In this document: positions 7,345-58,946 of the stretch, piece after piece | Layout of the letters: every line of letters begins with the position of its first letter | How positions within the stretch are numbered: the stretch's first letter is position 1 | From: Labia minor | Lineage: Eukaryota; Arthropoda; Insecta; Dermaptera; Spongiphoridae | DNA: 64,000 nucleotides | Reading direction: 5' to 3' | Assembly (NCBI GenBank): GCA_963082975.1 | Contig: OY720345.1 | Span: 17,200,491-17,264,490 of the forward strand | Notes under the pieces: model-generated | The model's input: the letters and a program-made list of their open reading frames with translations, nothing else | Told to the model about the DNA's origin: nothing | Databases searched by the model: none | Program-made: the position numbers and the translations under genes

Positions 7345-8644
7345 ATGGATCTTTATTCAGAAGACAGAAAATATCCAATATATATAGGTAATTTTTATTT
7401 CTATGTTTTTTCATCTAAAGTAATGTTAAATGTCACTAAAATTATTTTGTAATATTATTTATAATGATAAAATAGATAGATATATAAAAATATAATGATT
7501 TGAAATAACGAAAACAATTCTTTTTTTAGGTCCTCTATATTCTTGTATATATTGTCAAACCAATTTTATAAGTGAGGGGTTTTTATCTAAACATGTAAAA
7601 AAATGTTTTCATAAAAAAATATTTTCAATTTTAAAAAATGATGTAAAATTCAAAAAGGATACAGAGAAATATTTAGACGAAAAATTTGAACAAGATACTG
7701 ATTCAAACTTTAAAGAAGTCAGGCATTTTCAATGTAGTAATTTTAATAAGAAGATTAATCATATATCTCATTTAACTCCCCATTTATTAAATTTTACAGG
7801 TGAAAAGCATTTAGAATGTAATTATTGTAAAAAGAAATTTACTCGAAAATCATTTTTAGATAAACATTTATTAATTCATACAGGAGAAAAACCTTTTGAA
7901 TGTAATTATTGTAAAAAGAAATTTAATCAAAAATCAACTTTAAATACTCATTTAAAAATTCATACAGGAGAAAAACCTTTTGAATGTAATTATTGTAAAA
8001 AGAAATTTAGTCGGAAATCTCATTTAAGTGCACATTTAAAAATTCATACAGGTGAAAAGCCTTTTGAATGTATTTATTGTAAAAAAAAATTTAATCTAAA
8101 ATCACATTTAAATAGTCATTTACTAATTCATACAGGTGAAAAGCCTTTTGAATGTAATTATTGTAAAAAGAAATTTAATCAAAATTCTTCTTTAAAAACA
8201 CACATATTAATTCATACAGGTGAAACGCCTTTTGAATGTAATTATTGTGAAAAGAAATTTAAACAAAAATCACATTTAAATGATCATTTACTAAATCATA
8301 CAGGTGAAAAACCTTTTGAATGTAATTATTGTAAAAAGAAATTTAATCTGAAATCACATTTAAATTCTCATTTATTAATTCATACAGGTGAAAAGCCTTT
8401 TGAATGTAATTATTGTAAAAAGAAATTTAAACAAAAATCACATTTAAATAAACATTTACTAATTCATACAGGTGAAAAACCTTTTGAATGTAATTATTGT
8501 AAAAAGAAATTCAATCAAATATCACATTTAAATAAACATTTATTAATTCATACTGTTGAAAATCCATTTGAATGTAATTATTGTAAAAAGAAATTTAAAC
8601 AAAAATCACATTTCAATGATCATTTATTAATACATACTGTTTGA
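7345..8644 (+). CDS. C2H2 zinc-finger protein ZNF-1, two exons, 385 aa
   Basis: This is a probable nuclear DNA-binding protein with ten canonical C2H2 fingers. Exon 1 is 7345-7387 and encodes MDLYSEDRKYPIYI. The intron 7388-7529 starts GT, ends in a T-tract plus AG, and is phase 1. Exon 2 is 7530-8644. The joined length is 1158 nt, an exact multiple of three, and the frame is open to a TGA. Exon 2 has no usable in-frame ATG, so the start must come from exon 1, whose ATG has the same context and leader as four paralogues. After the leader comes an atypical C2H2 finger (CIYCQTNF, then H and C-F-H), a lysine-rich linker and a degenerate finger (FQCSNFNKK). The ten fingers have TGEKPFEC linkers. 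Unlike its paralogues it ends in a private HTV-stop. No KRAB, ZAD, BTB or SCAN domain is visible. The function is inferred from the family; the target is unknown. Confidence 0.85.
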
Positions 8645-8720
8645 GAAATATGCTAATAATGAAAACAAAAGATTTTCTTTCAATATAGATTATATACTTT
8701 ATAGCTAATAAAAATAAAAC

Positions 8721-9330
8721 CTCTGACTTTGTACGTCCTACGCAAGTCGGTTTTATCAATTTGGTGTCCTATGATCAGTAGAACAGTAGAACGGCTTCTA
8801 TCAACCTTTACCTTGATTTTCTTGATCGGAGGCGCTAATTATCAAGTAGCTTTCCCAATTTTGGTTCCGGAGGCTGAGTTGACTCCTTCCTATAGACCCC
8901 AGCTAGAGAAATTCTCTTGCCTGGCCCGGGACTTTGAACACGGGACCACGAGAATGTGACGCATTACTTTATGTCTCATATCATATTATCCATTTTATTT
9001 GGTCCATTAATAAATACATTATTACTAATTATTTATTACATTTAATTAAAAGACGCCTTTGGGTGAGAGGCTAGCCTCGCTGCTTCACATTTACATAGTC
9101 CCGGGTCTGGCAAGGGAATATCTCTAGCTGGGGTCTATGGGACGGAGTCAACCTAGCCTCCGGGATCAACATTGTGGAATAGCTACTTGATAAAAAGTAG
9201 CGCCTCCGATCAAGAAAATCAAGGTAAAGGTTGAGAGGACCCCTTCTAGTGATCATAGGACACCTTATTGATATAACCGACTTGATAGGCGATGTCCTTG
9301 CGTAGGACGTACAAAAGTCAGTTTTTTTTT
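8721..9330. repeat. Fold-back pair of SINE-like repeats
   Basis: The two ends are inverted copies: CTGACTTTGTACGTCCTACG on the left and GCGTAGGACGTACAAAAGTC on the right. Homology continues for about 250 bp in each arm (GATCGGAGGCGC, CAAGGTAAAGGTTGA, GCCTCCGG, CCCAGCTAGAGAAAT). The arms contain a B-box-like CGTGTTCAAAGTCCCGGG (complement) and a GAGGCTAGCCTCGC A-box-like stretch. This suggests two SINEs inserted head to head, or a fold-back element. Confidence 0.55.
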
Positions 9331-9384
9331 CTATTACATTTAAGAATCTTATAATTTATTATTAATGTTAGTTTGTTGATTATT

Positions 9385-9600
9385 TATTTATACAAGTCTA
9401 AAATATGTTTAATGATTCTTTCGTTTTACTAATCTATAATTGTAAATAAATTAGAAACTATAAAAATCCTTGTTTTAATTTTTAAGAAATTTTCTAAAAA
9501 TTCTTATTTAAATTCCTACAGAGGAGAAAAGCATTTTGAATTTAATTTAATCACATTTAAATTGTCATTTACTAATTCAAACAGGTAAAAAGCTTTAGAA
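9385..9600 (+). pseudogene. Decayed zinc-finger gene tail (copy 2)
   Basis: The same arrangement as at 46-208: TTTATTTATACAAGTCTAAA and a following AT-rich block, then GAGGAGAAAAGCATTTTGAA, CACATTTAAATTGTCATTTA and CAAACAGGTAAAAAGC. These are the linker, helix and next linker of a finger with many substitutions. It is a second, separate fossil of the cluster. Confidence 0.5.
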
Positions 9601-10014
9601 ATGAAATTATTTTAAAAAGAAAATTATTAAACATTTATAATGTTTGAAAAAAGGGGATTCATTTTTTGGCATTACTATCTGTGTGAATTCCTTTCAAACG
9701 GTGCTATAGATATATGGAGCGTATAGAGAAATTTTTTAATCTGGTGAATAATATCTATATATTTGAGATTCTATTGATTAGCCTGGAACAACTGCACAAA
9801 TTCACAGCTCAAATTGATAAAATTCATAAGTTTATATTTAAATAAATTTATTCACTTTCTTTAAATAATTTTTAATATAAACAAGAATTATTATTAGAAT
9901 AAAAAAGAAATGTACATATATTTATAATACCATATTTTATTGAATATAATGAAATGATTTTTTTGTAAAATATATTTTTTTTAAATATACATAGTAACTA
10001 TTAATTTATCCATT

Positions 10015-10545
10015 CAGTACCGACCGACGATAGTAAGAGAGGTATTGTTTTCACACCAAATTTCACATGAGGAGATTTTTACATATCTCCGCGAATCATG
10101 CATTTTCTTAATAGAAAAAAGTATTTTTAGCATGATGTCTGTTCGTCCGTCCGTCCGTCCGTATAGCTGTGTACAGCTTGATCGGCTCAACGGGTTTTGA
10201 TAAAATTTGGTATATTTACTTAATGCATCTGTATGATGATGAATTCAACTTTTGGTGGATATCCGGAAACCGGAAGTGGTAGTATTACCGACCGACGATA
10301 GGAAGGTAATGATTGTTTTCACACCAAATTTCACATGAGATTTTTTTTACTTATCTTCACGAATCATGCATTTTATTAAGAGGAAAAAATATTTTTAGCA
10401 TGATGCCTGTCCGTCCGTCCGTCTATCAATAGATGGTATGTGGTGTGTCCGTATAGACGTCTATTGCTTGAACGGCTTAACGGATTTTAAAATTCATCAA
10501 CTTTTGGTGTATATCAGGAAACTGGAAGTGGTAGTTTACAAAGTA
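10015..10545 (+). repeat. Tandem pair of a Helitron-like dispersed repeat
   Basis: Two direct copies (about 10018-10285 and 10288-10530) share ACCGACCGACGATAG, CACACCAAATTTCACATGAG, a CCGTCCGTCCGT run, and a CGGCT(C/T)AACGG block of the type often found at Helitron 5' ends. A related copy lies at 56690-57062 on the minus strand, and its end sequence recurs at 52927. Confidence 0.5.
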
Positions 10546-10676
10546 TTAATTTTATATTCATAGTCGGAAAATACTTCACTTAAAATATAATAGTAATTAA
10601 ACTAAAAATAAAAACCAAGATGATATAATTTAGTAATTTTAATTTGAGTTTTAAAAATATTTTTTTTTATACTTTA

Positions 10677-11890: not shown

Positions 11891-11892
11891 GT

Positions 11893-12060: not shown

Positions 12061-12114
12061 ACAAAGTTAGAAATATTAAGTTTAAAAATAATTTAAAATA
12101 TTTGAATTTTGAAA

Positions 12115-12356: not shown

Positions 12357-12358
12357 TA

Positions 12359-13807: not shown

Positions 13808-13857
13808 TAGTCGAGCTGGGGATGGCAATATGGGTTTTTCCAAAGAGAGAAAGTTAC

Positions 13858-18604: not shown

Positions 18605-19059
18605 AGAAAGGGAAAGAGGTCTCAAACAGTAATAAAATTGATCAAAATAAATTCTCACCCCCTTTTAAATTTAATTTTTCTGATAACACTTTTGAGTGGT
18701 TGCTTTCGGATTTTTTTGACTTTCATGAGCATGCCCTTTTAGATACTGGATCGGAAATGTCACTTATTAAGGAACAGTTTTTTAAATCTCATAACTTTAG
18801 ATTCAATAACCCTCGAAGTCCGCGTCTCAGTTCAACTTATCTAAATGGAATGGATGGAAAGAAAAGTAAAAAAATTAATAAGTCTGTCCTCTTGAACTTT
18901 AAAATAAATGAAATAAATTTTTTGTCAACCCCGTCTCTTAAACTCAGTCTTTTATTTGGTATAGATTTTTTTCGATTAAATGAAATTCATTTTGTAACGG
19001 ATGTATATTTATTATATATATATATGACAAAGTCACCCCAGGCGCTGTTGCATGACTGA
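18580..19059 (+). pseudogene. Protease region of the outer Gypsy element
   Basis: Contains HALLDTGSEMSLI, the DTG catalytic motif of a retropepsin, and LLFGIDFF downstream. From 18993 the sequence belongs to the LTR of the nested element. It is part of a broken element. Confidence 0.7.
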
Positions 19060-19783
19060 ATGGCAACGTCTAGGGAATTCCGACGACGGTTGGTGACTTG
19101 GACTTATATAGACAGTCGGTTACCAGCGTTCTTTGTGTAAAGACGTGTTATCTTGTCTCCACGTTCTTTGCATAAAGACGTGTTTTGATGATCCTCCATG
19201 CTGGATGGATCTTTTGTGACTCCCATGGTGGAGAAATTATATTATAGTATGATCTCCACGTTCTTTGTGTAAAGACGTGTTTTGATGATCCTCCATGTTG
19301 GATGGATCCTTTGTGACTCCCATGGTGGAGAAGTAATATAATATTTCTTATAATTATACATTTTCTTTGACTCCCATGGTGGAGAAGTAATATAATATTT
19401 CTTATAATTATACATTTTCTTTTAAACAACCGTTTTTCAATTTAACTTAAACTACATCCTTATTGACCAGTCTCATTAAAATCTGCTTTACCTCTGAGTA
19501 TAGCATGGCGCCCATTTAACCTTCATCTCCGCTGGACCACTGGAGGAAAGGCAGGTTGTTCTCTGCAGCTGCGGGTAATATTTTCCCCCTTTAAGAAGAT
19601 ATCCACCTGTTTACCTGTGGAGACCTTAAACTCCTTTTTTCCCTCTCCACATAAGATCCATTTTTCCCTCTCCCATTTCCCCTCTTCTCTCTTCTATCAC
19701 ATATTTCCCTCCCTTCTCTCCCCCTTCTTCCATCCTCCTTGTAAGGGGCCTGTTGGCATCCACTGTGGGCCTCCCCCCTTACA
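18993..19783 (+). repeat. Inner Gypsy 5' LTR
   Basis: 791 bp. Contains internal direct repeats (ACTCCCATGGTGGAGAA three times; CACGTTCTTTG with AAAGACGTGTT). Confidence 0.92.
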
Positions 19784-19900
19784 AATTGGCACCCAACGTG
19801 GCCCTCCCCTTACAAATTGGCACCCAACGTGGCCCTCCACTTACAAATTGGCACCCAACGTGGCCCTCCCCTTACAAATTGACGCCCAACGTCGAGGCCT
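19784..19900 (+). repeat. Fourfold tandem primer-binding-site repeat
   Basis: Four successive units of about 30 bp carry ATTGGCACCCAACGTGG (the last reads ATTGACGCCCAACGTCG), joined by CCCTCC-CTTACAA. TGG-C-CCCAACGTGG resembles a lysine-tRNA primer-binding site. Only the first touches the LTR end. Confidence 0.8.
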
Positions 19901-22363: not shown

Positions 22364-23154
22364 TGTAACGGATGTATATTTATTATATATATATATGACA
22401 AAGTCACCCCAGGCGCTGTTGCATGACTGAATGGCAACGTCTAGGGAATTCCGACGACGGTTGGTGACTTGGACTTATATAGACAGTCGGTTACCAGCGT
22501 TCTTTGTGTAAAGACGTGTTATCTTGTCTCCACGTTCTTTGCATAAAGACGTGTTTTGATGATCCTCCATGCTGGATGGATCTTTTGTGACTCCCATGGT
22601 GGAGAAATTATATTATAGTATGATCTCCACGTTCTTTGTGTAAAGACGTGTTTTGATGATCCTCCATGTTGGATGGATCCTTTGTGACTCCCATGGTGGA
22701 GAAGTAATATAATATTTCTTATAATTATACATTTTCTTTGACTCCCATGGTGGAGAAGTAATATAATATTTCTTATAATTATACATTTTCTTTTAAACAA
22801 CCGTTTTTCAATTTAACTTAAACTACATCCTTATTGACCAGTCTCATTAAAATCTGCTTTACCTCTGAGTATAGCATGGCGCCCATTTAACCTTCATCTC
22901 CGCTGGACCACTGGAGGAAAGGCAGGTTGTTCTCTGCAGCTGCGGGTAATATTTTCCCCCTTTAAGAAGATATCCACCTGTTTACCTGTGGAGACCTTAA
23001 ACTCCTTTTTTCCCTCTCCACATAAGATCCATTTTTCCCTCTCCCATTTCCCCTCTTCTCTCTTCTATCACATATTTCCCTCCCTTCTCTCCCCCTTCTT
23101 CCATCCTCCTTGTAAGGGGCCTGTTGGCATCCACTGTGGGCCTCCCCCCTTACA
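22364..23154 (+). repeat. Inner Gypsy 3' LTR
   Basis: 791 bp, apparently identical to 18993-19783. The outer element resumes at 23155. Confidence 0.92.
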
Positions 23155-24212
23155 ATTTTAAATTTTCAAATCAAATTACTAAAATTCCTTGTCAAAATCA
23201 AACAGTCTCAGTTCCATCTCAAGTCTTGTCTAATGTCCAGTATGTCTCCTTTGCCATCCTTAAATTTTCTTATAGTAAGCCATTTGATAAGTTAAATCAG
23301 TCCATTCTAACTTGTGAATATAATGATGAATTGAATTTATTATTATCTGAATTTAATGATATTTTTTCAAATCGACCTGGACTCACAAAGGGTTATGTTC
23401 GTGAGATTAAATTAAGGGATAATACTCCTCACCAACTTTATCAGAATCCCATTGACCTTTGTAATAGGGAAGCATTAAATACTCTTACTAATAAATATCT
23501 TGAATGGGGAGTAATTGAGAGATCTCAGTCTCAGGATGTGAATCCGATTCGTGTAGTGGCAAAGCAGAACGGTCCAATTAGAATATGTTTAGAGGCGGAA
23601 AAAATAAAGAAAAAATCCCTATCCGATTATGAAATTACACCTCCACCAGACGAATTATTATTTATGAAGGAACAACCATATGTCTTATCCACTTTAGACC
23701 TAACCAAATCCTATTGGCAAATTAGTTTATTATTCTCTTCAAAGTTTAGTCTTGTACTTAATATTTTTATGTGGTTATTTTTAAATTTGTTATTGTTTAA
23801 TAATGTACTGTGCATGAGAGATGGAATCACTGAATTACCCCGTTTTGTCATTCCTCCATCAGTTCAAAATTTTATTGTTAATTGCTTTCACTTTAATTAT
23901 GATCATTATGGCATAGTTAAAACAAAATGGATAATCGGTAAAGAATTCTTTTGGAAAAATTTAATTAAAACTGTTAAATCTGTATCAAGTCTGTCTACTG
24001 TTAGTTTTAAAAAAGGTGTTATGTCACAATGTTTAAAGGCAACCGTCAAAGAAAAAAATATAGATAAGTATGTCCCGTCTCATATAGGAAATTGTGAATT
24101 AAATAAAAGTCTGTCTTATAAAAAATTTTTCTTGTTTAATAATGTCCTGTTCATGAGATATAAAATAACTAAATCATACCGTCTTGTCGTTTCAGCCCAT
24201 ATCAAAATTTAA
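23155..24212 (+). pseudogene. Pol remnants of the outer Gypsy element
   Basis: The frame includes the region before reverse transcriptase (LLSEFNDIFSNRPGLTKGYV), early reverse transcriptase (YVLSTLDLTKSYWQISL) and an integrase zinc-domain-like part (FHFNYDHYGIVKTKW). The set of domains is incomplete. It is part of a broken element. Confidence 0.7.
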
Positions 24213-29086: not shown

Positions 29087-30854
29087 ATGGATCTTTATTC
29101 AGAAGTAGGCAGAAAATATCCAATACATATAGGTAATTTTTATTATGTTATTTCATCTAAAGTAATGTTAATTGTCACTAAAATTATTTATAATGATAAT
29201 ATTCCTTAAATTGAATTATAAAATAGATAGATATATAAAAATATAATGATTTGAAATAACGAAAACAATTCTTTTTTTAGGTCCTCTATATTCTTGTATA
29301 TATTGTCTAACCAATTTTATAAGTGAGGAGTTTTTATCTAAACATCTAAAAAAATGTTTTCATAAAAAAATATTTTCAATTTTAAAAAATGATGTAAAAT
29401 TCAAAAAGGATACAGAGAAATATTTAGACGAAAAATTTGAACAAGATACTGATTCAAACTTTAAAGAAGACAGGCATTTTCAATGTAGTAATTTTAAAAA
29501 GAAGATTAATCATATATCTCATTTAACTCCGCATTTATTAAATTTTAAAGGTGAAAAGCATTTAGAATGTAATTATTGTAAAAAGAAATTTACTCGAAAA
29601 TCACATTTAGATACACATTTATTAATTCACACAGGTGAAAAACCTTTTGAATGTAATTATTGCAAAAAGAAATTTAATCAGAAAGCAACTTTAAAAACAC
29701 ATTTATTAATTCATAAAGGAGAAAAACCTTTTGAATGTAATTATTGTAAAAAGAAATTTAATCAGAAGTCAATTTTAGATAAACATTTATTAATTCATAC
29801 AGATGAAAAACCTTTTGAATGTAATTATTGTAAAAAGAAATTTATTTCGAAATCAATTTTAGATAAACATTTATTAATCCATACAGGAGAAAAACCTTTT
29901 GAACATTTATTAATTCACACAGGTGAAAAACCTTTTGAATGTAATTATTGCAAAAAGAAATTTAATCATAAATCAACTTTAAAAACACATTTATTAATTC
30001 ATACAGGAGAAAAACCTTTTGAATGTAATTATTGTAAAAAGAAATTTAATCGAAAGTCAATTTTAGATAAACATTTATTAATCCATACAGGAGAAAAAGC
30101 TTTTGAATGTAATTATTGTGAAATGAAATTTAATCGGAAATCTACTTTAAATAGTCATTTATTAATCCATACAGGAGAAAAAGCTTTTGAATGTAATTAT
30201 TGTGAAATGAAATTTAATCGGAAATCTACTTTAAATAGTCATTTACTAAATCATACAGGTGAAAAGACTTTTCAATGTAATTATTGTGAAAAAAAATTTA
30301 CTCGTAAATCACATTTAAATAGACATTTATTAATTCATACAGGAGAAAAACCTTTTGAATGTAATTATTGTGAAAAAAAATTTACTCGTAAATCACATTT
30401 AAATACACATTTATTAATTCATACAGGAGAAAAACCTTTTGAATGTAATTATTGTAAAAAGAAATTTAATCTGAAATCAATTTTAAAAACACATATATTA
30501 ATTCATACAGGTGAAAAGAATTTTCAATGTAATTATTGTGAAAAAAAATTTACTCGTAAATCACATTTAAATACACATTTAATAAATCATACAGGTGAAA
30601 AGCCTTTTGAATGTAATTATTGTGAAAAGAAATTTAATCTGAAATCTCATTTAAATTCTCATTTATTAATTCATACAGGTGAAAAGCCTTTTGAATGTAA
30701 TTATTGTAAAAAGAAATTTAATCAAACATCACATTTAAAGAAACATTTATTAATTCATACAGGAGAAAAACCTTTTGAATGTAATTATTGTGAAAAGAAA
30801 TTTAATCGGAAATCAACTTTAAATACACATATATTAATTCATACAGATAAATAG
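29087..30854 (+). CDS. C2H2 zinc-finger protein ZNF-2, two exons, 539 aa
   Basis: This is a paralogue of ZNF-1. Exon 1 is 29087-29132, encoding MDLYSEVGRKYPIHI with one extra codon. The intron is 29133-29280 (phase 1, GT to TTTTTTTAG). Exon 2 is 29281-30854. The spliced length of 1620 nt is 540 codons including the TAG stop. The N-terminus carries the atypical CIYC finger, the DVKFKKDTEKYLDEKFEQD linker region and a degenerate FQCSNFKKK finger, as in ZNF-1. Fifteen full fingers follow. Between full fingers four and five there is a half-finger (around 29901-29938) that has the HLLIH end but no CxxC start, a scar of an in-frame exchange between repeats. An ATG at 30123 lies inside a finger and is not the start. 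The promoter matches ZNF-1, while the last finger and 3' tail match ZNF-3 and ZNF-4. It is probably nuclear; its DNA target is unknown. Confidence 0.85.
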
Positions 30855-31880
30855 CCTTTTGAATGTAATTATTGTATAAAGAAAATCTCCTTTAAGTAAA
30901 CATTTATTAATTCATAATTTTTGAAAAAAAGGCTTAATAGTACTGACTAAAAATTATTTTTGTTTCTTTCTTTGATTAATGTTATTTACTTTATATGTTA
31001 AATTCAATAAAAATCTTATTTTTTAACTGAATATTAATAATAATTATTGTATTTCGACCATTGATTAAACCTTATTATCTTAATCCCTTTATATTTCTCA
31101 CTCCTGTGATAAACAAATAATAATAAATTAAAAAAATTTATAATAATAATAAATAAATAAATTGTATATATGTATGCGTCTGTGTATGTGTAAAATATAA
31201 GGTAAACCTACCAGTGGTGGACCACCCGGCCAGTAATGGATCATTTGATTGATTTTTGATAAACTACAATAATTTCAAATTAAACTCGAGATATTGATAA
31301 ATATCAAGAACAACCTCTTCCGGATTGTTTAACAATGAAACAGAGACCAGTTGCTGCATTTATATTATAATGATTTTTTTTTGTAATTGGGAGTTTTGGC
31401 AGGGTGAAAAGGGATGAAAAAGAAATAATGGTCTAATATGGTAGACTTTGAATCGGCGTGCACTGACCTGGAGATTTGGACTACAAAAAAAGAAAAAGAT
31501 TAAATTTATCATTAAAAAAAATAAACAGATTTATTATATTTGATATTTAAATATAAATTTTTAAATCCTTTAGAGATTTAGATTTTAAGATTTTAAATTA
31601 CATAATGACATACAGTATTTTTTTGATATTTTAAATTAAAAAAAATATAGACAGATCATTTATAAAAATTATAAAAAACTAATATTTGTTGGAAAACTAT
31701 TTTTTTTATTAAAACTATAGCCGGTCCTTTCTCTCTTCCAAAATCTCCTCCTGAAAAGTCCGTCTTCACTCGACGCTAACCCACGAACGAATGTCCTTGT
31801 CTGACTTTTTTTCACAACTAGTCCCTTCAGGGGAAACCTCTTAGAATAATCCTTTCCTTTGAAAAGACATTTATATTTAA
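30855..31880 (+). repeat. ZNF-2 downstream segment, duplicated after ZNF-4
   Basis: Positions 30855-31880 and 50357-51380 are near-identical over about 1 kb. Shared marks are a former finger just after the stop (TTTTGAATGTAATTATTG), the poly(A) signal, GGTGGACCACCCGGCCAGTA and CCGGTCCTTTCTCTCTTCC. Shorter versions follow ZNF-6 (to 55366) and ZNF-7 (to 59345). No gene lies within it. Confidence 0.75.
31006..31011 (+). terminator. ZNF-2 poly(A) signal AATAAA
   Basis: AATAAA lies about 150 bp after the stop codon in the shared tail AATTCAATAAAAATC. The same signal follows ZNF-3 (37320), ZNF-4 (50508), ZNF-6 (55238) and the ZNF-7 fragment (59098). The position is conserved in all copies. Confidence 0.55.
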
Positions 31881-35351: not shown

Positions 35352-37168
35352 ATGGATCTTTATTCACAAGAAGACAGAAAATATCCAATATATATAGGTA
35401 ATTTTTATTTCTATGTTATTCATCTATAGCAATATTAATTGTCACTAGAATTATTTTGTTTTATATTATTTTTAATGATAATATACCTTAATTTTAAAAT
35501 AGTTAGATATATAAAAATAATTCAATTCTAAATAAAACAATTCTTTTTGTAGGTCCTCTATATTCTTGTATATATTGTCGAACCAGTTTTATAAGTGAGA
35601 AATTTTTATCTAAACATTTAAAAAAATGTTTTCATAAAAAAATATTTTCAATTTTAAAAAATTATGTAAAATACAAAAAGAATACAAAGAAATATTTAGA
35701 CGAAAAATTAGAAGACGATACTGATCCTAATTATGAAAAGCCTTTAAAATGTAAATATTGTAAAAAGAAATTTAGTCGGAAATCTCATTTAAGTGCACAT
35801 TTAAAAATTCATACAGGTGAAAAGCCTTTTGAATGTATTTATTGTAAAAAGAAATTTAATAGGAAATCATATTTCAATTCTCATTTATTAATTCATACAG
35901 ATGAAAAACCTTTTGAATGTAATTATTGTAAAAAGAAATTTAATCAGAAATCAACTTTAAATACTCATTTAAAAATTCATACAGGAGAAAAACCTTTTGA
36001 ATGTAATTATTGTAAAAAGAAATTTAGTCGGAAATCTCATTTAAGTGCTCATTTAAAAATTCATACAGGTGAAAAGCCTTTTGAATGTATTTATTGTAAA
36101 AAGAAATTTAATAGGAAATCATATTTCAATTCTCATTTATTAATTCATGGAGATGAAAAACCTTTTGAATGTAGTTATTGTAAAAAGAAATTTATTTTGA
36201 AATCAATTTTAGAAAATCATTTATTAATTCATACTGGTGAAAAACCTTTTGAATGTAATTATTGTAAAAAGAAATTTAATCTGAAAGGTAATTTAAATAA
36301 TCATTTACTAATTCATACAGGTGAAAAACCTTTTGAATGTAATTATTGTAAAAAGAAATTTAATTATAAATCACATTTAAATACACATTTACTAATTCAT
36401 ACTGGTGAAAAACCTTTTGAATGTAAATATTGTCAAAAGAAATTTAATGTGAAATCTGCTTTAAATGCACATTTATTAATTCATACTGGAGAAAAACCTT
36501 TTGAATGTAAATATTGTCAAAAGAAATTTAATAATAAATCAATTTTAAATAAACATTTATTAATTCATACAGGTGAGAAACCTTTTGAATGTAAATATTG
36601 TCAAAAGAAATTTAATAGGAAAACAAATTTAAATACTCATTTAAAAATTCATGCTGGTGAAAAACCTTTTGAATGTAATTATTGTCAAAAGAAATTTCTT
36701 CTGAAATCACATTTAAATTCTCATTTATTAATTCATTCAGGTGAAAAACCTTTTGAATGTAAATATTGTCAAAAGAAATTTAATAGGAAAACAAATTTAA
36801 ATACTCATTTAAAAATTCATGCTGGTGAAAAACCTTTTGAATGTAATTATTGTCAAAAGAAATTTCTTCTGAAATCACATTTAAATTCTCATTTATTAAT
36901 TCATTCAGGTGAAAAACCTTTTCAATGTAAATATTGTAAAAATAAATATAATCATAAATCAACTTTAAATACACATTTACTAATTCATACTGGTGAAAAA
37001 CCTTTTGAATGTAAATATTATAAAAAGAAATTTTATCGGAAATCACATTTAAATTCTCATTTATTAATTCATACAGCTGAAAAGCCTTTTGAATGTAATT
37101 ATTGTGAAAAGAAATTTAATCGGAAATCAACTTTAAATACACATATATTAATTCATACAGATAAATAG
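35352..37168 (+). CDS. C2H2 zinc-finger protein ZNF-3, two exons, 553 aa
   Basis: Exon 1 is 35352-35397 (MDLYSQEDRKYPIYI), the intron is 35398-35552 (phase 1), and exon 2 is 35553-37168. The spliced 1662 nt give 553 codons plus TAG. After the atypical finger (CIYCRTSF) and an acidic and lysine-rich spacer there are 17 fingers. Finger 16 reads CKYY: its second zinc cysteine is replaced by tyrosine (codon 37019-37021), so that finger probably does not fold. Fingers 11-12 and 13-14 are an identical 168-bp tandem duplication, and fingers 1-2 recur as 4-5 with minor changes. The upstream region resembles ZNF-4, not ZNF-1 and ZNF-2. An ATG at 36197 lies inside the array and is not the start. It is likely a sequence-specific nuclear DNA-binding protein; no effector domain was recognised. 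Confidence 0.85.
36593..36928 (+). repeat. 168-bp identical tandem duplication inside ZNF-3
   Basis: Two adjacent 168-bp units (offset 36611 to 36779) encode the finger pair with helices NRKTNLNTH and LLKSHLNSH twice, with no base difference visible. The units end at small differences (GAG versus GAA on the left, TTTTC versus TTTTG on the right). Confidence 0.8.
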
Positions 37169-48540: not shown

Positions 48541-50356
48541 ATGGATCTTTATTCACAAGAAGACAGAAAATATCCAATATATATAGGTAATTTTTATTTC
48601 TGTTATTTCATCTATAGCAATATTAATTGTCAGTAGAATTATTTTGTTTTATATTATTTTTAATGATAATATACCTTAATTTTAAAATAGTTAGATATAT
48701 AAAAATAATTCAATTCTAAATAAAACAATTCTTTTTGTAGGTCCTCTATATTCTTGTATATATTGTCGAACCAGTTTTATAAGTGAGAAATTTTTATCTA
48801 AACATTTAAAAAAATGTTTTCATAAAAAAATATTTTCAATTTTAAAAAATGATGTAAAATACAAAAAGAATACAAAGAAATATTTAGACGAAAAATTAGA
48901 AGACGATACTGATTCAAACCATGAAAAGCCTTTTGAATGTAATTATTGTAAAAAGAAATTTAATCGGAACTCAACTTTAAATACTCATTTACTAATTCAT
49001 ACTGGTGAAAGACCTTTTGAATGTAAATATTGTCAAAAGAAATTTAATCGGAACTCAACTTTAAATACTCATTTACTAATTCATACTGGTGAAAGACCTT
49101 TTGAATGTAAATATTGTCAAAAGAAATTTCATCTTAAAAGACTCTTAAATACACATTTATTAAATCATACAGGTGAAAAGCCTTTTGAATGTAATTATTG
49201 TAAAAAGAAATTTAATCTGAAATGTAATTTAAATAATCATTTACTAATTCATACAGGTGAAAAGCCTTTTGAATGTAAATCTTGTAAAAAGAAATTTAAT
49301 CATAAATCACATTTAAATACACATTTACTAATTCATACTGGTGAAAAACCTTTTGAATGTAAATATTGTAAAAAGAAATTTAATCAGAACTCACATTTAA
49401 ATACACATTTACTAATTCATACACTTGAAAAACCTTTTGAATGTAATTATTGTAAAAAGAAATTTAATCTGAAATGTAATTTAAATACTCATTTAAAAAT
49501 TCATACAAGTGAAAAACCTTTTGAATGTAATTATTGTAAAAAGAAATTTAATCGGAACTCAACTTTAAATACTCATTTACTAATTCATACTTGTGAAAGA
49601 CCTTTTGAATGTAAATATTGTAAAAAGAAATTTAATCGGAACTCAACTTTAAATACTCATTTACTAATTCATACTGGTGAAAAACCTTTTGAATGTAAAT
49701 ATTGTAAAAAGAAATTTAATCTGAAAAGTAATTTAAATACTCATTTACTAATTCATACAGGTGAAAAACCTTTTGAATGTAATTATTGTAAAAAGAAATT
49801 TAGTCTGAAATCTCATTTAAGTGCACATTTAAAAATTCATACAGGTGAAAAACCTTTTGAATGTAATTATTGTAAAAAGAAATTTAATCGGAACTCAACT
49901 TTAAATACTCATTTACTAATTCATACTGGTGAAAGACCTTTTGAATGTAAATCTTGTAAAAAGAAATTTCATCATAAATCACATTTAAATACACATTTAC
50001 TAATTCATACTGGTGAAAAACCTTTTGAATGTAAATATTGTCAAAAGAAATTTAATCGGAACTCAACTTTAAATACTCATTTACTAATTCATACAGGTGA
50101 AAAACCTTTTGAATGTAATTATTGTAAAAAGAAATTTAGTCTGAAATCTCATTTAAGTGCACATTTATTAATTCATACAGGAGAAAAACCTTTTGAATGT
50201 AATTATTGTGAAAAGAAATTTAATCGGAAATCACATTTAAATTCTCATTTATTAATTCATACAGCTGAAAAGCCTTTTGAATGTAATTATTGTGAAAAGA
50301 AATTTAATCGGAAATCAACTTTAAATACACATATATTAATTCATACAGATAAATAG
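48541..50356 (+). CDS. C2H2 zinc-finger protein ZNF-4, two exons, 553 aa
   Basis: Exon 1 is 48541-48586 (MDLYSQEDRKYPIYI), the intron 48587-48740 is phase 1, and exon 2 is 48741-50356. I read exon 2 codon by codon: it is open throughout, has no in-frame ATG, and ends in TAG. The spliced 1662 nt give 553 aa. It has an N-terminal atypical CIYCRTSF finger, the linker DVKYKKNTKKYLDEKLEDD, then 17 fingers. Many share the helix NRNSTLNTH (fingers 1, 2, 8, 9, 12 and 14); others vary ([36 protein letters not shown]). The last two fingers match those of ZNF-3, including an unusual HTAEKP linker. Its promoter (48080-48540) is a close copy of the ZNF-3 promoter, and its downstream kilobase is a copy of that of ZNF-2. 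It is therefore a mosaic product of duplication. Its biological role is not known. Confidence 0.85.
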
Positions 50357-51380
50357 CCTTTTGAATGTAATTATTGTATAAAGAAAATCTCCTTTAAGTA
50401 AACATTTATTAATTCATAATTTTTGAAAAAAAGGCTTAATAGTACTGACTAAAAATTATTTTTGTTTCTTTCTTTGATTAATGTTATTTACTTTATATGT
50501 TAAATTCAATAAAAATCTTATTTTTTAACTGAATATTAATAATAACTATTGTATTTCGACCATTGATTAAACCTTATTATCTTAATCCCTTTATATTTCT
50601 CACTCCTGTGATAAACAAATAATAATAAATTAAAAAAATTTATAATAATAATAAATAAATAAATTGTATATATGTATGCGTCTGTGTATGTGTAAAATAT
50701 AAGGTAAACCTACCAGTGGTGGACCACCCGGCCAGTAATGGATCATTTGATTGATTTTTGATAAACTACAATAATTTCAAATTAAACTCGAGATATTGGT
50801 AAATATCAAGAACAACCTCTTCCGGATTGTTTAACAATGAAACAGAGACCAGTTGCTGCATTTATATTATAATGATTTTTTTTTGTAATTGGGAGTTTTG
50901 GCAGGGTGAAAAGGGATGAAAAAGAAATAATGGTCTAATATGGTAGACTTTGAATCGGCGTGCACTGACCTGGAGATTTGGACTACAAAAAAAGAAAAAG
51001 ATTAAATTTATCATTAAAAAAAAATAAACAGATTTATTATATTTGATATTTAAATATATATTTTTAAATCCTTTAGAGATTTAGATTTTCAGATTTTAAA
51101 TTACATAATTACATACAGTATTTTTTTGATATTTTAAATTAAAAAAATATAGACAGATCATTTATAAAAATTATAAAAAACCAATATTTGTTGGAAAACT
51201 ATTTTTTTTATTAAAACTATAGCCGGTCCTTTCTCTCTTCCAAAATCTCCTCCTGAAAAGTCCGTCTTCACTCGACGCTAACCCACGAACGAATGTCCTT
51301 GTCTGACTTTTTCACAACTAGTCCCTTCAGGGGAAACCTCTTAGAATAATCCTTTCCTTTGAAAAGACATTTATATTTAT
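50357..51380 (+). repeat. ZNF-4 downstream segment, copy of the ZNF-2 downstream segment
   Basis: It holds the same blocks in the same order as 30855-31880, with a few single-base and indel differences. Its right end (GACATTTATATTTA) joins directly to the truncated ZNF-5 exon, marking a rearrangement breakpoint at about 51380. Confidence 0.75.
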
Positions 51381-51747
51381 GATGTAAAATACAAAAAGAA
51401 TACAAAGAAATATTTAGACGAAAAATTAGAAGACGATACTGATTCAAACCATGAAAAGCCTTTTGAATGTAATTATTGTAAAAAGAAATTTAATCGGAAC
51501 TCAACTTTAAATACTCATTTACTAATTCATACTGGTGAAAGACCTTTTGAATGTAAATATTGTAAAAAGAAATTTAATCGGACCTCAACTTTAAATACTC
51601 ATTTACTAATTCATACTGGTGAAAGACCTTTTGAATGTAAATATTGTCAAAATAAATTTAATCTGAAAAGTAATTTAAATACTCATTTACTAATTCATAC
51701 AGGTGAAAAACCTTTTGAATGTAATTATTGTAAAAAGAAATTTAGTC

Positions 51748-51947
51748 TGTGGCGGACATGTGTATAGGGTAAGGTGGAAGTCGGATGTTAGGAAAGGGCT
51801 AGAAATAAAAGCCGATGAGTCGGAGTCATAACTCATTTTATTGAATTCACCGTTTACACCATATACAAATGCCCCCATCATGTTGTTGCCGTCATGGGCT
51901 GGTGCACGTTGGCGCGGCGCCATCTTCTTGTGGTGTGCGGCACCACA
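51748..51947 (-). repeat. TRIM LTR (left)
   Basis: 200 bp; contains AATAAA and the CGATGAGTCGGAGTCATAAC block. Confidence 0.9.
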
Positions 51948-52254
51948 GTACTCCCCCTCCAGCGTTCTAGCGATACAACCCCCGTGGTAGCGGTCATGAC
52001 CGCGATGGCGTCCGGACGGTGGCGCCGACCGAGGCACGTTGTCGATGCGATGACACCGGGCGCTCGTGGTCGTGGCGATGATGACATCTCGGACAGTGGC
52101 GGCGACCGCAGCACGTGTTGCCGCTCGGGAGACGATGGCGCTGATGGAAGTGACGGCAGTGATGGCCAACATGTACGGTCTAGGTGTTGACGACCGGTAT
52201 GATGGCGATAATGTCCGAGGCGACTGCGATGACGGCGACGACCTCAGCGGCAGC

Positions 52255-52480
52255 CGTGGCGGTGCAGAACCGGAGGCAGCCGTGGCGATGCAGAACCGGA
52301 GGCAGCCCTGGCGATGTGGGTCCGGAGGCAGCCGTGGCGATGTAGATCCGGAGGCAGCCGTGGCGATGTAGGTCCGGAGGCAGCCGTGGCGATGTAGATC
52401 CGGAGGCAGCCGTGGCGATGTAGGTCCGGAGGCAGCCGTGGCGATGTAGGTCCGGAGGCAGCCGTGGCGATGTAGTTGGA
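52255..52480. repeat. Minisatellite inside the TRIM element
   Basis: About eight units of near 27 bp: CCGGAGGCAGCCGTGGCGAT followed by GTAGGT or GTAGAT (CAGAAC in the first units). Long frames seen through it on both strands are repeat artefacts, not genes. Confidence 0.85.
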
Positions 52481-52603
52481 GGCGGCGCCGTCGTGCCATG
52501 GATGGAAACGGCTAGGAAGCCGGGACAGGATTGCGATATTTGCTGGAGACACCCCCAGGGTTTATTAAACCGGTTCCAGCAAATATCACGTCGGGGTCAC
52601 CAG

Positions 52604-52803
52604 TGTGGCGGACATGTGTATAGGGTAAGGTGGAAGCCGGATGTTAGGAAAGGGCTAGAAATAAAAGCCGATGAGTCGGAGTCATAACTCATTTTATTGA
52701 ATTCACCGTTTACACCATATACAAATGCCCCCATCATGTTGTTGCCGTCATGGGCTGGTGCACGTTGGCGCGGCGCCATCTTCTTGTGGTGTGCGGCACC
52801 ACA
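52604..52803 (-). repeat. TRIM LTR (right)
   Basis: 200 bp, about one difference from the left LTR. Confidence 0.9.
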
Positions 52804-53132
52804 AGTCTAAAATCTCATTTAAGTGCACATTTAAAAATTCATACAGGTGAAAAACCTTTTGAATGTAATTATTGTAAAAAGAAATTTAATAGGAAATCAA
52901 CTTTAAAAACACATATATTTAAAAATGCCTCCCTCTTCGGTCGGTAAAAACGCTCACACATGTCCAACCTGTTTGCCATCGTTGACATCACTAGTGGTGA
53001 AAAAAAATAGCATTGAATGATTGAGTGATTTACTCTGTGTATGCTCTGTGGTAAATACAAATCGAAATTACAAACATTTATATTACTTATTACCTTATAT
53101 TTTATAATTGATAATACATTATTCAATTAAAG

Positions 53133-55087
53133 ATGGATCTTTATTCACAAGAAGACAGAAAATATCCAATATATATAGGTAATTTTTATTTCTATGTTAT
53201 TTCATCTATAGCAGAGGTTCTTAAACTGTGGTCCGCGGACCCCTGGGGGTCCGCGAAGCTTTTACTGGGGGTCCGCAAAGCCATCGTACAGGTGTACGAG
53301 AAAATGATGAGTCAGTTAAAACTTTAATTAATATAAAAGAAGCGATGGCATGGCTTTGTGAGGAAACAGAGATCAAATACGCAAATTCAACGAAATGTGC
53401 AAGAAAACTATTGCTACCGTTTCCATCTTCATATTTAGCTGAATTTTCTTTCTTCCATATTATAATTTCTAATAAAATGTGTTCTACTATATGCAAAAAA
53501 ATCGTTATTCACTAATCACTGTTAGAAATATCCATCATATATCCTTGTTCATATGAGATCGTAAGCCAGAAATTAACTAATAAAATGACGTAAAGTACCT
53601 AAAGTTGGGATGGGGTCCGTCAAAAATTTTTTTTTTAAGTGGGGGTCCGCGGAGTACAAAGGTTTAAGAACCTCTGATCTATAGCAATATTAATTGTCAC
53701 TAGAATTATTTTGTTTTATATTATTTTTAATGATAATATACCTTAATTTTAAAATAGTTAGATATATAAAAATAATTCAATTCTAAATAAAACAATTCTT
53801 TTTGTAGGTCCTCTATATTCTTGTATATATTGTCGAACCAGTTTTATAAGTGAGAAATTTTTATCTAAACATTTAAAAAAATGTTTTCATAAAAAAATAT
53901 TTTCAATTTTAAAAAATGATGTAAAATACAAAAAGAATACAAAGAAATATTTAGACGAAAAATTAGAAGACGATACTGATCCTAACCATGAAAATACTTT
54001 TGAATGTAAATATTGTAAAAAGAAATTTAATCTGAAATGTAATTTAAATACTCATTTACTAATTCATACAGGAGAAAAACCTTTTGAATGTAATTATTGT
54101 AAAAAGAAATTTAGTCGGAAATGTAATTTAAATAATCATTTACTAATTCATACAGGTGAAAAGCCTTTTGAATGTATTTATTGTAAAAAAAAATTTAATC
54201 TGAAATGTAATTTAAATACTCATTTAAAAATTCATACAGGTGAAAAACCTTTTGAATGTAATTATTGTAAAAAGAAATTTAATTGGAACTCAACTTTAAA
54301 TACACATTTACTAATTCATACTGGTGAAAAACCTTTTGAATGTAAATATTGTAAAAAGAAATTTAATCAGAACTCACATTTAAATACACATTTACTAATT
54401 CATACACTTGAAAAACCTTTTGAATGTAATTATTGTAAAAAGAAATTTAATCTAAAATGTAATTTAAATACTCATTTAAAAATTCATACAGGTGAAAAAC
54501 CTTTTGAATGTAATTATTGTAAAAAGAAATTTAATTGGAACTCAACTTTAAATACTCATTTACTAATTCATACTGGTGAAAAACGTTTTGAATGTAAATA
54601 TTGTAAAAAGAAATTTAATCATAAATCACATTTAAATACACATTTACTAATTCATACTGGTGAAAAACCTTTTGAATGTAATTATTGTAAAAAGAAATTT
54701 AATAGGAAATCATATTTCAATTCTCATTTATTAATTCATACAGATGAAAAACCTTTTGAATGTAATTATTGTAAAAAGAAATTTAATTGGAACTCAACTT
54801 TAAATACACATTTACTAATTCATACTGGTGAAAGACCTTTTGAATGTAAATATTGTCAAAAGAAATTTAATCGGAACTCAACTTTAAATACTCATTTACT
54901 AATTCATACTGGTGAAAGACCTTTTGAATGTAAATATTGTCAAAAGAAATTTAATCAGAACTCAACTTTAAATACACATTTACTAATTCATACAGGTGAA
55001 AAACCTTTTGAATGTAATTATTGTAAAAAGAAATTTAATAGGAAATCACCTTTAAAAACACATATATTAATCCATAGAGATAAATAG
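53133..55087 (+). CDS. C2H2 zinc-finger protein ZNF-6, two exons, 441 aa
   Basis: Exon 1 is 53133-53178, the intron is 53179-53807, and exon 2 is 53808-55087. The spliced 1326 nt give 441 aa and a TAG. Splice sites and phase match the paralogues. The intron is about 470 bp longer because a hAT MITE sits in it at 53212-53676; removing it restores the usual length of about 156 bp. Thirteen fingers follow the atypical CIYCRTSF finger. Helices include NLKCNLNTH, SRKCNLNNH, NWNSTLNTH (three times) and NRKSYFNSH. One linker is altered to TLEKP, one to TDEKP and one finger start to KRFEC. It ends HILIHRDK, as does the ZNF-7 fragment, so these two are closest at the 3' end. The promoter is short: only about 80 bp matches ZNF-3 and ZNF-4. 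It looks intact, but its expression is uncertain given that truncated upstream match. Confidence 0.8.
53212..53676 (+). mobile_element. hAT MITE in the ZNF-6 intron
   Basis: Ends are CAGAGGTTCTTAAAC and GTTTAAGAACCTCTG; a perfect 8-bp duplication ATCTATAG flanks it (53204-53211 and 53677-53684). The ends are followed by GGTCCGCGGACCCC, typical of a widespread hAT group. Inside, RKLLLPFPSSYLAEFSF resembles the C-terminal transposase motif, so it is an internally deleted copy of a real transposon. The empty site exists in ZNF-3 and ZNF-4. Confidence 0.9.
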
Positions 55088-55920: not shown

Positions 55921-56335
55921 CATTGAAAAATTTACAATAAATAAATAAAAATAATTGGAAATCTTTTCAACTTATTATTTTGATAAATTTTATTAATATT
56001 TTTAATTTTTTTTAAACTGCCAAAAATAACATACCCATAATAATAGTTGTAATAAAAATAAAAATATAAATCACAATGTAAGTAAAATATTGAATCGTTT
56101 TATTTATATTGTTTCAATTATTGTTTGAATATTTATTAAATTTATATATAGATTAATTTACATGTTTAAATGTATATTTAATAAATTTATTTATTGATTC
56201 TTAGTATTAATAATTCCAATTATTTTCTTGAAATTTTTTTTTATTTAAAAGCATATTCAGCATATCTCGCAAATTTGAATTGGATTAAATAACATATATT
56301 AATTTAAATTAAATTAATTCAATTATAAATTAAAA
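55921..56335. other. AT-rich gene-free stretch
   Basis: Nothing recognisable. Confidence 0.4.
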
Positions 56336-56539
56336 TTAATAAATAATATTTATTAAACCAGCGAAAGTTTGGCTCTTTTTTGATGGCACCACGTCACGTG
56401 TTGGCGCGTGAGATTTCCAGTGTTAATAAGCGGGAGTGTCCTCCCCTAGACTTTCCCGCATATAAATAGGTATAAAGAGTTGTGAATGAATATTTAGAAT
56501 GTAATAAAGTGCTACTTCCGGTTAACTGATATTTTAAAT

Positions 56540-57062
56540 GTAAAAAAAACAGATATGGATATAATATAAATATTTTTAATTTTATTTTATTTATAATATA
56601 TAAGGGCTGGATGTGACGTCATGAAGTGCTGGGTACGTCATATAATTTTAAATTAAGAAATAACTAATGAAGATGATTTTTCTCGAGGATAAAACCAATA
56701 CAAAGTGCATAACACGTGGAGATATGCCTTCACGTGAAATTTGATATGAAAATAACCCTTCACTTCCTCTCCTCAATCGGCAATACTAGCACTTCCGGTT
56801 TCCGGATTTGCACCAAAAGTTGATCCATTCATCATACTGATGAATTAAGTAAATATACCAAATTTCATCAAAATCCGTTGAGCCGTTCAAGCTGTACACA
56901 TCTCTACGGACACACAGCGGACGGACGGACAGACATCATGCTAAAAATACTTTTTTCTTGTTAAGAAAATGCATGATTCGTGGAGATATGTACCTAAAAA
57001 TATCCACAGGTGAAATTTGGTGTGAAAACAATACCTCCCTTACTATCGTCGGTCGGTAAAAA
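56540..57062 (-). repeat. Repeat B copy joined to the ACCGACCGACGATAG repeat
   Basis: Repeat B (TGTGACGTCATGAAG) runs to about 56690. The Helitron-like repeat seen at 10015-10545 then follows in the opposite direction, ending ACTATCGTCGGTCGGTAAAA. Confidence 0.5.
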
Positions 57063-57490
57063 GGAAACGCTACTTGTATAGGTAAAATGTCACTTCCGGT
57101 AGTCAGATCATGATGAAAATTGGTATCTGAATTTTTTTCATATTTGTAAATCTATATACAAAATATGAAGCAAATATCTCGAAGCAAACTGGTACTTTAC
57201 TTGAAATGTAAACGCAACCATTGTAGGTAAAGTACCATTTCCGGTTAACCGATTTTGACGAAATTTTGATAGAAATCTACAAACTGTGAATAATATCGGT
57301 GTACCAAATTTCGAAGTCCTAGCTTGATTAGTTTTTGAGTAAATTTGCTTACAGACATTACATACATACATACACACACACAGACATAATTCCAAAAATG
57401 GTATTTTCCGACTCAGGGAGGTCTAAAACGTCAAGATCTATCAAAATCTCGAAGTCGAAATTTTTGACGATTCCAATACTTCCCTTATAC

Positions 57491-57745
57491 CAGGTACGGC
57501 CAACACGTCGATCGCGATCGACCGGTCGATCCCGAAGCGTCTTTCGGTCGATCGCCAACCGCTTTGTGATTGATCAAGAAGCGTTTTTTGGTCGATCATA
57601 GCCCTTAAATTTTTTCAATTTCAATAAAAGCTCAACCGTTTTCTATACTAAGGTTTTGAACACTTCGTACTTTTTTCTTTGGTGATCTCGAAACATATTC
57701 AAGAAAAATAGTCGATCCTATATATAAAGAAGTTGGCCACCCCTG
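57491..57745. mobile_element. hAT MITE, 255 bp
   Basis: Ends are CAGGTACGGCCAAC and GTTGGCCACCCCTG; the 8-bp duplication CCTTATAC is perfect (57483-57490 and 57746-57753). The interior has GGTCGATCG repeats typical of short hAT elements. No coding. Confidence 0.85.
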
Positions 57746-57869
57746 CCTTATACGAAGTATGCGGGAAAGTAAAAAATTAATTCTGGTACTTTCAGCAATT
57801 CAATTTTCGATGTTGAGATTTTGATGTTTTTGATGTTATAAATAATATTTATCAAATTATAATTTAATT

Positions 57870-58191
57870 TAAATTAATAAATATTATTTAATCAAATTCA
57901 AATTTGCGAGATAGTCGAGTGGATAGTGGAGTGTTTGGCTCTTTGTTGATGGCACCACGTCACGTGTTGGCGCGTGAGATTTCCAGTGTTAAAAAATTAA
58001 TTCTGGTACTTTCAGCGATTGTATCAAGCTGAAATTCTATATATAGCAGTTTTATACAATTATTAATCATGTGAAAAATTATCAAACATATATCTTTATT
58101 TTTACGGTCACACACACACACACACACACACATATTTAAAAATTAATTTATTAAAATATATATTATATAATATATTATATATAGTATATAA

Positions 58192-58223
<32 letters not shown>

Positions 58224-58330
58224 TCTGAAATTAATTTTAAATTATATAAATATATTAGAAATTAATTTAATATAATTTAACACATAATAATATATTAAAA
58301 TATTTTATTTTATATATACATAATTTAGTA
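57870..58330 (+). repeat. Repeat C copy and simple repeats
   Basis: The repeat C block (GATGGCACCACGTCACGTGT, 57945-58115), then (CA)n at about 58108-58130, then TA-rich simple sequence to 58330. Confidence 0.55.
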
Positions 58331-58436
58331 ATACTGATTATTAATGTAAATATAAATAATAATATTTAATATGGCAAATATGTAAAATTTTGTAAAGAAT
58401 GTATCAGAAGTTTAGTGTCTAACATTCTGGCGTATT

Positions 58437-58553
58437 GCGCATGCGTATATCGGTCGGTCGGTCGGTCGGTCGTTTTGGAATCCCACGCGAAATCTATATT
58501 TTTTCCCCATCCCGCAAAAGTGCTCAACGCCGCTAAAGAAGTTTTCACTTCAA
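58437..58553 (-). mobile_element. Helentron-like end at the ZNF-7 breakpoint
   Basis: GAAGTGAAAACTTCTTTAGC on the minus strand (58532-58551) matches the Helentron end at 44998. A CGGTCGGTCGGTCGGTCGG run lies at 58450-58470. Confidence 0.4.
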
Positions 58554-58946
58554 AAATTTAAACACAAATCAGTTTTAAATACACATTTACTAATTCATAC
58601 TGGTGAAAAACCTTTTGAATGTAATTATTGTAAAAAGAAATTTAATCAGAAATCATATTTAAAGAAACATTTATTAATTCATACTGGAGAAAGATCTTTT
58701 GAATGTAATTATTGTCAAAAGAAATTTAAATGGAACTCAACTTTAAATACTCATTTACTACTTCATACTGGTGAAAAACCTTTTGAATGTAAATATTGTC
58801 AAAAGAAATTTAAACTCAAATCAGTTTTAAATACACATTTACTAATTCATACAGGTGAAAATTTTTTTGAATGTAATTATTGTAAAAAGAAATTTAATCG
58901 GAAATCAACTTTAAAAACACATATATTAATCCATAGAGATAAATAG
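58554..58946 (+). pseudogene. ZNF-7, 3' fragment of a zinc-finger gene
   Basis: Only the last four and a half fingers remain. The fragment starts in mid-finger (helix HKSVLNTH), immediately after a Helentron-like end at 58533-58551, and continues open through helices NQKSYLKKH, KWNSTLNTH, KLKSVLNTH and NRKSTLKTH to HILIHRDK and a TAG. The 3' flank (58947-59300), with its AATAAA at 59098, is the standard family tail. Nothing upstream resembles the leader exon or promoter. It is a 5'-truncated pseudogene, closest to ZNF-6 at its end, probably cut off by the insertion or a rearrangement at that repeat. Confidence 0.8.

Follow-up and report, generated by a model that had tools for sequence, protein, structure and literature searches.

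The 64-kb window analysed here (the whole stretch, C2:17200491-17264490) raises the question of what a row of C2H2 zinc-finger (ZNF) genes with minute first exons represents, and what common task such genes might perform. The genome has 604,477,936 bases in 71 contigs, with a GC content near 30% and six contigs of 71-126 Mb, and appears to be an invertebrate's. Five intact two-exon C2H2 genes, ZNF-1, ZNF-2, ZNF-3, ZNF-4 and ZNF-6, lie in the window, all on the plus strand, and similarity across the genome points to several hundred young family members. Probably they are sequence-specific repressors of a large and young family, which may be directed against mobile DNA and would work in the manner of the KRAB, ZAD and FiNZ families, with another N-terminal module.

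Each gene has a first exon of 43 or 46 nt, coding for 14 residues in ZNF-1 and 15 in the others, and a second exon that holds the fingers. ZNF-1 begins at ATG 7345 with the leader MDLYSEDRKYPIYI (exon 1, 7345-7387, ending in a phase-1 donor); its second exon (7530-8644) encodes the C2HC finger CIYCQTNF...HVKKC, a degenerate finger and 10 ordinary fingers, with a stop after ...HTV. ZNF-2 (exon 1, 29087-29132, ATG 29087, leader MDLYSEVGRKYPIHI; exon 2, 29281-30854) also has a C2HC finger and a degenerate finger, followed by 15 ordinary fingers, one 36-nt partial finger, which is in frame, and the early stop HTDK. The remaining three genes share the leader MDLYSQEDRKYPIYI: ZNF-3 (35352-35397, ATG 35352; 35553-37168) encodes the C2HC finger and, when a loose pattern is applied, 17 fingers, of which one has a ligand Cys changed to Tyr; ZNF-4 (48541-48586, ATG 48541; 48741-50356) encodes the C2HC finger and 17 fingers; and ZNF-6 (53133-53178, ATG 53133; 53808-55087) encodes the C2HC finger and 13 fingers, with the stop HRDK. 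The introns of ZNF-1, -2, -3, -4 and -6 (142, 148, 155, 154 and 629 bp) are all GT-AG and phase 1, and the joined frames are open for 385, 539, 553, 553 and 441 amino acids, respectively.

A preliminary description had named five intact two-exon genes on the plus strand: all the exon pairs are present with open joined frames, and its ten splice coordinates are all correct. The 15-codon start exon that it gave to the whole set applies to ZNF-2, -3, -4 and -6; ZNF-1 has 14 codons. Likewise its first finger, CIYCRTSF, is that of ZNF-3, -4 and -6 and defines one of two subtypes in the window, the other being formed by ZNF-1 and ZNF-2 (CIYCLTNF) with their additional degenerate finger. By eye, this degenerate finger resembles one in a gene on C6, L045. 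As exon 1 has only 43-46 nt and exon 2 lacks a start, simple open reading frame (ORF) calling would miss four of the five genes. In-frame methionines in exon 2 are confined to ZNF-2 (residues 297 and 325, counted in the joined protein). ATG-based calling would therefore overlook ZNF-1, -4 and -6 and shorten ZNF-2, as expected, and it would also overlook ZNF-3, for which truncation had been expected. No match to Rfam was found in the window.

A genome search with the 79-residue N-terminus gave 2281 first-look candidates, of which 150 were scored, all at E <= 3.5e-27. At least 36 scored copies form a cluster at C2:16.999-17.363 Mb (0.37 Mb), all on the plus strand, and the remaining 114 were counted by ourselves on C10 (89), elsewhere on C2 (8), and on C6 (8), C1 (4), C4 (3) and C5 (2). 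The tandem family of the preliminary description belongs to one among many clusters of a genome-wide family. Fifty module-bearing places were compared, L001-L030 being the 30 top-scoring ones and L031-L050 hand-picked from the remaining list for spread. In 45 of them the module is preceded by a leader exon that ends in a phase-1 donor; L017, L020, L022, L025 and L039 have no such exon. The pattern at the end of exon 1 and the donor, AARTAYCCNATHTAYATAGGTWA, has 403 + 380 = 783 exact matches in the genome, counting both strands, and its reversed control has 0. From the 44 leader places listed on C1, 20 were hand-chosen along the chromosome (one, L052, is also in the scored module list). All 20 are followed by the same second exon, after introns of 68-981 bp, and 18 have at least five in-frame fingers, the C2HC finger included, the other two having 1 and 3; this downstream check covers C1 only. 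Over 45 loci, the number of ordinary fingers per gene has a median of 12 and a range of 0-22.

The family is young, local tandem growth having been added to an older dispersal. Three pairs of places within the C2 cluster repeat at 23,297 bp, a spacing that is read as recent tandem segmental duplication. In a tree of 47 modules, a branch whose support of 92/79 falls slightly short of the mark of the tool has the 27 cluster rows together on one side, and the 10 rows from C10 need 6 changes. Within the window, some 880 bp 3' of ZNF-2 (30961-31840) and of ZNF-4 (50463-51340) are 98.9% identical, which is evidence for a recent segmental duplication. Upstream of the ATG, the first 50-120 bp are alike in most of 24 loci, with ZNF-1 and ZNF-2 as exceptions, and farther upstream only subgroups are alike. 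The L031 stretch from -920 to -711 corresponds to -664 to -451 of L033, and this L033 stretch has a second counterpart in L031 closer to the ATG; promoter-side sequence seems to be duplicated in some members. Leader and donor matches also lie 381-393 bp apart at two places on C2, three at C2:16288519-16289315 (minus strand) and two at 16293341-16293744 (plus strand); these closely repeated first exons are possibly alternative starts of one gene. An origin of the copies as retrocopies is rejected in view of the retained intron.

The leader has the consensus MDLYSQEDxKYPIYI, about 15 residues, and the module that follows it is readable in 67 of 70 loci (it is broken in L020, L022 and L025), 55 of the modules being distinct. 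The ligands C, C, H and C are present in all 67, while H27, the histidine of CFH, is kept in 60 (48 of the 55 distinct modules). Since the cysteine is invariant and H27 varies, the ligand set is C-x2-C-x12-H-x3-C, that of a C2HC finger; the ligands proposed in the preliminary description, a histidine and CFH, hold for the first histidine and the CFH cysteine and not for the CFH histidine. An alignment of 41 modules was assembled from ZNF-6 and 40 of the 55 distinct modules, picked by hand; the 15 omitted include L037, L038, L043 and L049, which are not near-copies. Invariant in this alignment are L2, C5, C8, I13, F17, L18, H21, C25, I30 and K35.

By NG86 over all pairs of the alignment, the finger has a ratio of nonsynonymous to synonymous substitution rates (dN/dS) of 0.28, against 0.88 in the linker behind it, and in the 20 C1 loci the two values are 0.27 and 0.94. 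For the leader, codons 10-15 (KYPIYI) have a dN/dS of 0.19 in 17 leaders outside the cluster, all of 15 residues. Codons 2-9 have a value of 0.35 in 14 C1 leaders, a set that was selected via codons 10-15 and omits six leaders of other length. Among L001-L050, comparisons of cluster loci with loci elsewhere give 0.75 for the leader and 0.50 for the module, and those among loci elsewhere give 0.49 and 0.26. On these values the conserved part consists of the leader, with its KYPIYI end, and one C2HC finger, the charged linker of about 25 residues that follows being loosely conserved. The 90 residues first proposed for a profile search are therefore too long a stretch: the leader and the single finger are conserved, and the next 25 or so residues are near neutral.

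The finger arrays show a different pattern. A set of 490 fingers, each 28 residues long, was drawn from 42 genes that have exon 1 and a long frame; it comprises 365 distinct DNA sequences and 161 distinct contact quartets. Entropy peaks at positions -1, 3 and 6 (2.79, 2.80 and 2.53 bits). Among nearest-neighbour fingers differing by at most 4 nt (198 or 196 pairs, according to how ties are broken), the proportion of nonsynonymous differences (pN) at these positions is 2.34 or 2.74 times the overall proportion of synonymous differences (pS). The 95% interval of the second value, 2.06-3.74, is too narrow, because some fingers enter more than one pair and gene conversion probably occurs. The structural core has a pN/pS of 0.04-0.05 and the rest of the finger 0.95. 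The pS of the contact codons is itself raised, 0.041 against 0.030 overall, giving a local ratio of 1.7; the observed contact-site value is reached by 4 of 1540 position triples. When all pairs from the window genes alone are taken, positions -1, 3 and 6 give 1.34. Where contact positions are occupied by Leu, Trp or Thr, the code that relates fingers to DNA is unreliable.

The arrays have preferred ends. Outside the cluster, 11 of 20 loci end in ...HNV. In 10 of them AATAAA follows the stop at a distance of up to 160 nt (one had 88 nt to inspect), and 8 of the 11 have it in the same extended context. ZNF-1 ends in HTV, close to the HNV of the family. In the cluster an earlier stop, TDK or RDK, is found in 10 of 30 loci.

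The second exons have very strong Pfam matches to C2H2-type models (E as low as 8e-130 for zf-H2C2_2), and they encode tandem C-x2-C-x12-H-x3-H fingers with TGEKP-like linkers, as expected of the Kruppel type. Other models typical of repeated fingers (PyrI_C, BED, AN1, BolA and similar) are also matched, several of them beyond the whole-protein cut-off and nearly all without a passing stretch, and are read as probable cross-matches. The 41 modules match 24 families at E <= 1, among them zf-C2H2 in 27 modules and, weakly, zf-MYST in 9. Neither ZAD (zf-AD), whose ligands are four cysteines, nor KRAB is among these 24 families; nor was KRAB found in the second exons (E <= 0.01; 25 of 26 families viewed for protein 1) or in two leader-plus-module proteins at E <= 10, in agreement with the preliminary description, to which neither domain had been visible. 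No BCL11 family was matched by the 41 modules at E <= 1; Pfam presumably holds a model for the BCL11 CCHC finger.

The AlphaFold model of the alignment is a beta-beta-alpha finger, with a predicted local distance difference test (pLDDT) score of 90-94 in blocks from residue 1 to residue 30, where 22 residues score at least 90. Beyond it the helix extends with falling confidence (mean pLDDT 77.3, predicted template modelling score 0.49). An earlier model from less diverse rows had a second short helix where this one has a single long helix, and the finger is the only part that is trusted. Foldseek gave nothing at E <= 0.001 for the model; its best matches are single C2H2-type fingers, and the third is the CCHC finger of MOZ, 1m36 (24 residues, 0.5 A, 42% identity, E 0.78). 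A profile search against PDB gave weak matches to INSM1 (0.001), KMT2D (0.065) and MOZ (0.074). The N-terminal finger is therefore best modelled as a variant C2HC finger of the classical fold. The suggestion of a new N-terminal module stands in so far as leader and finger are conserved and match no named domain, and falls in so far as a new fold was implied.

Several known systems resemble this one. The tetrapod KRAB-ZNF genes likewise combine a constant N-terminus with a diversifying array and occur in clusters; no match to KRAB was found here. The CCHC finger of the MYST protein MOZ (KAT6A) shares the predicted fold and the CCHC ligands, in addition to the weak zf-MYST matches, although there the finger lies within an acetyltransferase, a domain that is not present here. 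BCL11A and BCL11B belong to a family of few genes with another ligand spacing, which was not among the Pfam matches of the 41 modules. They do have an atypical N-terminal CCHC finger, which in BCL11B is reported to mediate multimerisation (PMC12127727).

The closest parallel in architecture is with the FiNZ-ZNF genes of cyprinid fish, in which a short N-terminal exon is followed by one finger exon; about 700 such genes in zebrafish, positive selection, and derepression of LTR (long terminal repeat) elements upon knockdown are reported (PMC10547256). The same arrangement of a short N-terminal exon and a single finger-array exon is found here, a working likeness and not membership. The fish domain has 28 glutamate-rich residues where the present genes have a leader of about 15 residues and a C2HC finger, and the function of the fish genes was tested. 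Insect ZAD-ZNF genes form a large and dynamic class with an N-terminal zinc-binding module (PMC7655104); ZAD is unmatched here, and its place is taken by one predicted beta-beta-alpha finger with the ligands C, C, H and C. The APEZ/ZF271-like genes of the pea aphid and Oncopeltus share lineage expansion, linked tandem fingers, clusters and pseudogenes. Only finger arrays are reported for them (PMC6444547); the present genes have a conserved leader and C2HC finger, with no other convincing Pfam domain. According to the same study, insects lack a direct orthologue of the KRAB partner KAP-1, and the partner of the insect expansions is left open (PMC6444547). In literature searches on ZNF expansions or N-terminal domains, which mostly did not cover subscription journals, no title or opening of an abstract described the leader and C2HC module, so that a description elsewhere is possible. 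No relative was confirmed with two alignments in viral or bacterial and archaeal contigs, collections that lack animal genomes and have little bearing on novelty.

In a family of repressors, the finger array would bind DNA and be selected for new targets, while the constant leader and finger would do a common job, such as recruiting a partner or joining copies; as a rule, mobile elements or other repeats that change fast would be repressed. The chances that transposons are the target are about even. A separately evolved invertebrate counterpart of KRAB and FiNZ, in which several hundred two-exon repressors multimerise or recruit a silencing cofactor through leader and C2HC finger, in an arms race with the adjacent young LTR elements, is a tentative proposal, rated somewhat below even. 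The genes might instead act on host loci, meiosis or heterochromatin, as do PRDM9 and the ZAD-ZNFs Oddjob and Nicknack, with transposons not the main target. Diversification at contact sites is common to such families, but the large copy number is more like that of KRAB- and FiNZ-ZNF genes; action on host loci, otherwise not separable here from transposon targeting, seems rather unlikely. In its favour, Nicknack is reported to be located at heterochromatin (PMC7655104).

Several observations weigh against a family of selected repressors, and some of them suggest passive amplification, in which segmental and tandem duplication multiplies mostly decaying copies and constraint comes from a few source genes. 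Within the C2 cluster the dN/dS of the module is 1.02 and that of the leader 2.29 (with very few changes), that is, no constraint; the copies of the window are too young for constraint to show. Identical copies recur at the 23,297-bp spacing, and the window contains fragments and early stops. Many arrays stop early: TDK or RDK ends are found in only 10 of 30 cluster loci and HNV ends in 11 of 20 others, and many of the rest stop mid-array. Loci in which exon 1 is missing or fewer than five fingers are in frame number 6 among the 30 of the cluster and 2 among the 20 others. In a set of 22 short-intron loci, those outside the cluster show a divergence per site of 0.10 for the intron, 0.09 for the module and 0.13 for module third positions; since intron and module diverge about equally, part of the family's similarity is due to youth. 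The contact-site excess could be inflated via finger shuffling and gene conversion, and among Hemiptera repeat content and ZF271-like expansion are reported to show no correlation (PMC6444547). Passive amplification is nevertheless unlikely given that 18 of the 20 C1 loci have at least five in-frame fingers, that finger dN/dS is low in these same loci, and that contact sites show an excess at all.

In the 17 leaders from outside the cluster, codons 2-9 show hardly any constraint (dN/dS 0.88), a further point against a selected family. It would also fit an N-terminal finger that is a worn first finger, with exon 1 as a mere supplier of the start codon and no distinct module, as would the weak zf-C2H2 matches in 27 of 41 modules and the ordinary predicted fold. 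The specific C2HC ligands in all 67 readable modules, with H27 varying freely, the constraint on KYPIYI and the ten invariant columns make a worn finger improbable. Still less probable, indeed very unlikely, is a mobile element as the carrier of the gene unit: it would explain why 783 leaders occur over both strands and module matches on C1, C2, C4, C5, C6 and C10, but the intron is kept, the ends of homology vary upstream (from about 25 bp to the 1300-bp limit of comparison) and downstream (about 70-600 bp), and no common end was seen in up to 24 and 26 loci, respectively, without a systematic search for terminal signatures.

Remnants of the family and mobile elements lie among the intact genes. 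ZNF-5 is a plus-strand remnant without exon 1 and C2HC finger, its left part (51363-51747) continuing in frame into an insert and its right part (52804-52925) lying 3' of it; what had been taken for a separate fragment, to 51747, and a tail, from 52804, is one gene split by this insert. The insert (51748-52803, plus strand, 1.06 kb) has direct terminal repeats of 200 bp (51748-51947 and 52604-52803, 1 mismatch in 200), TG...CA ends and a 4-bp target duplication, AGTC, and is presumably a TRIM-like element (terminal-repeat retrotransposon in miniature). Short tandem repeats with offsets of 52, 78 and 104 bp occur in it at 52249-52475. ZNF-7 (58467-58946, plus strand) is a fragment with an array's last fingers and without leader or C2HC finger. 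The decayed tails that follow stop codons in the window appear to be what is left of the family's usual last finger with its HNV stop, stranded by an earlier HTDK or HRDK stop. They were also considered as separate genes, which was rejected as they resemble 3' remnants.

The intron of ZNF-6 holds a miniature inverted-repeat transposable element (MITE) at 53212-53676, with the inverted ends CAGAGGTTCTTA...TAAGAACCTCTG and the 8-bp duplication ATCTATAG, which we take to be hAT-like. In an alignment, an element with the same end sequence lies directly upstream of the leader of L043, and it would account for the shifted flank of that locus. Directly upstream of ZNF-1, an LTR element at 1289-7043 with a minus-strand ORF of 1757 amino acids has 228-bp repeats (1289-1516 and 6816-7043, 1 mismatch); it looks like a member of what we assume to be the BEL/Pao family. 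Between 15110 and 26402, two direct repeats of 732 bp (99.9% identical) stand 10.6 kb apart, and between them lie two repeats of 792 bp (18993-19784 and 22364-23155, 100% identical), an arrangement that suggests one very young LTR element nested in another. A further pair of 158-bp repeats in the window is 98% identical, so that LTR pairs overall are 98-100% identical. Young LTR elements among the genes are consistent with an arms race, and are no test of one.

A short constant module in several hundred genes would offer a single bait for a cofactor, and one leader sequence could allow the joint knockdown of many genes, as in FiNZ. In their fast-changing residues, predicted to read DNA, and their shared start, these genes resemble the vertebrate families that silence jumping genes.

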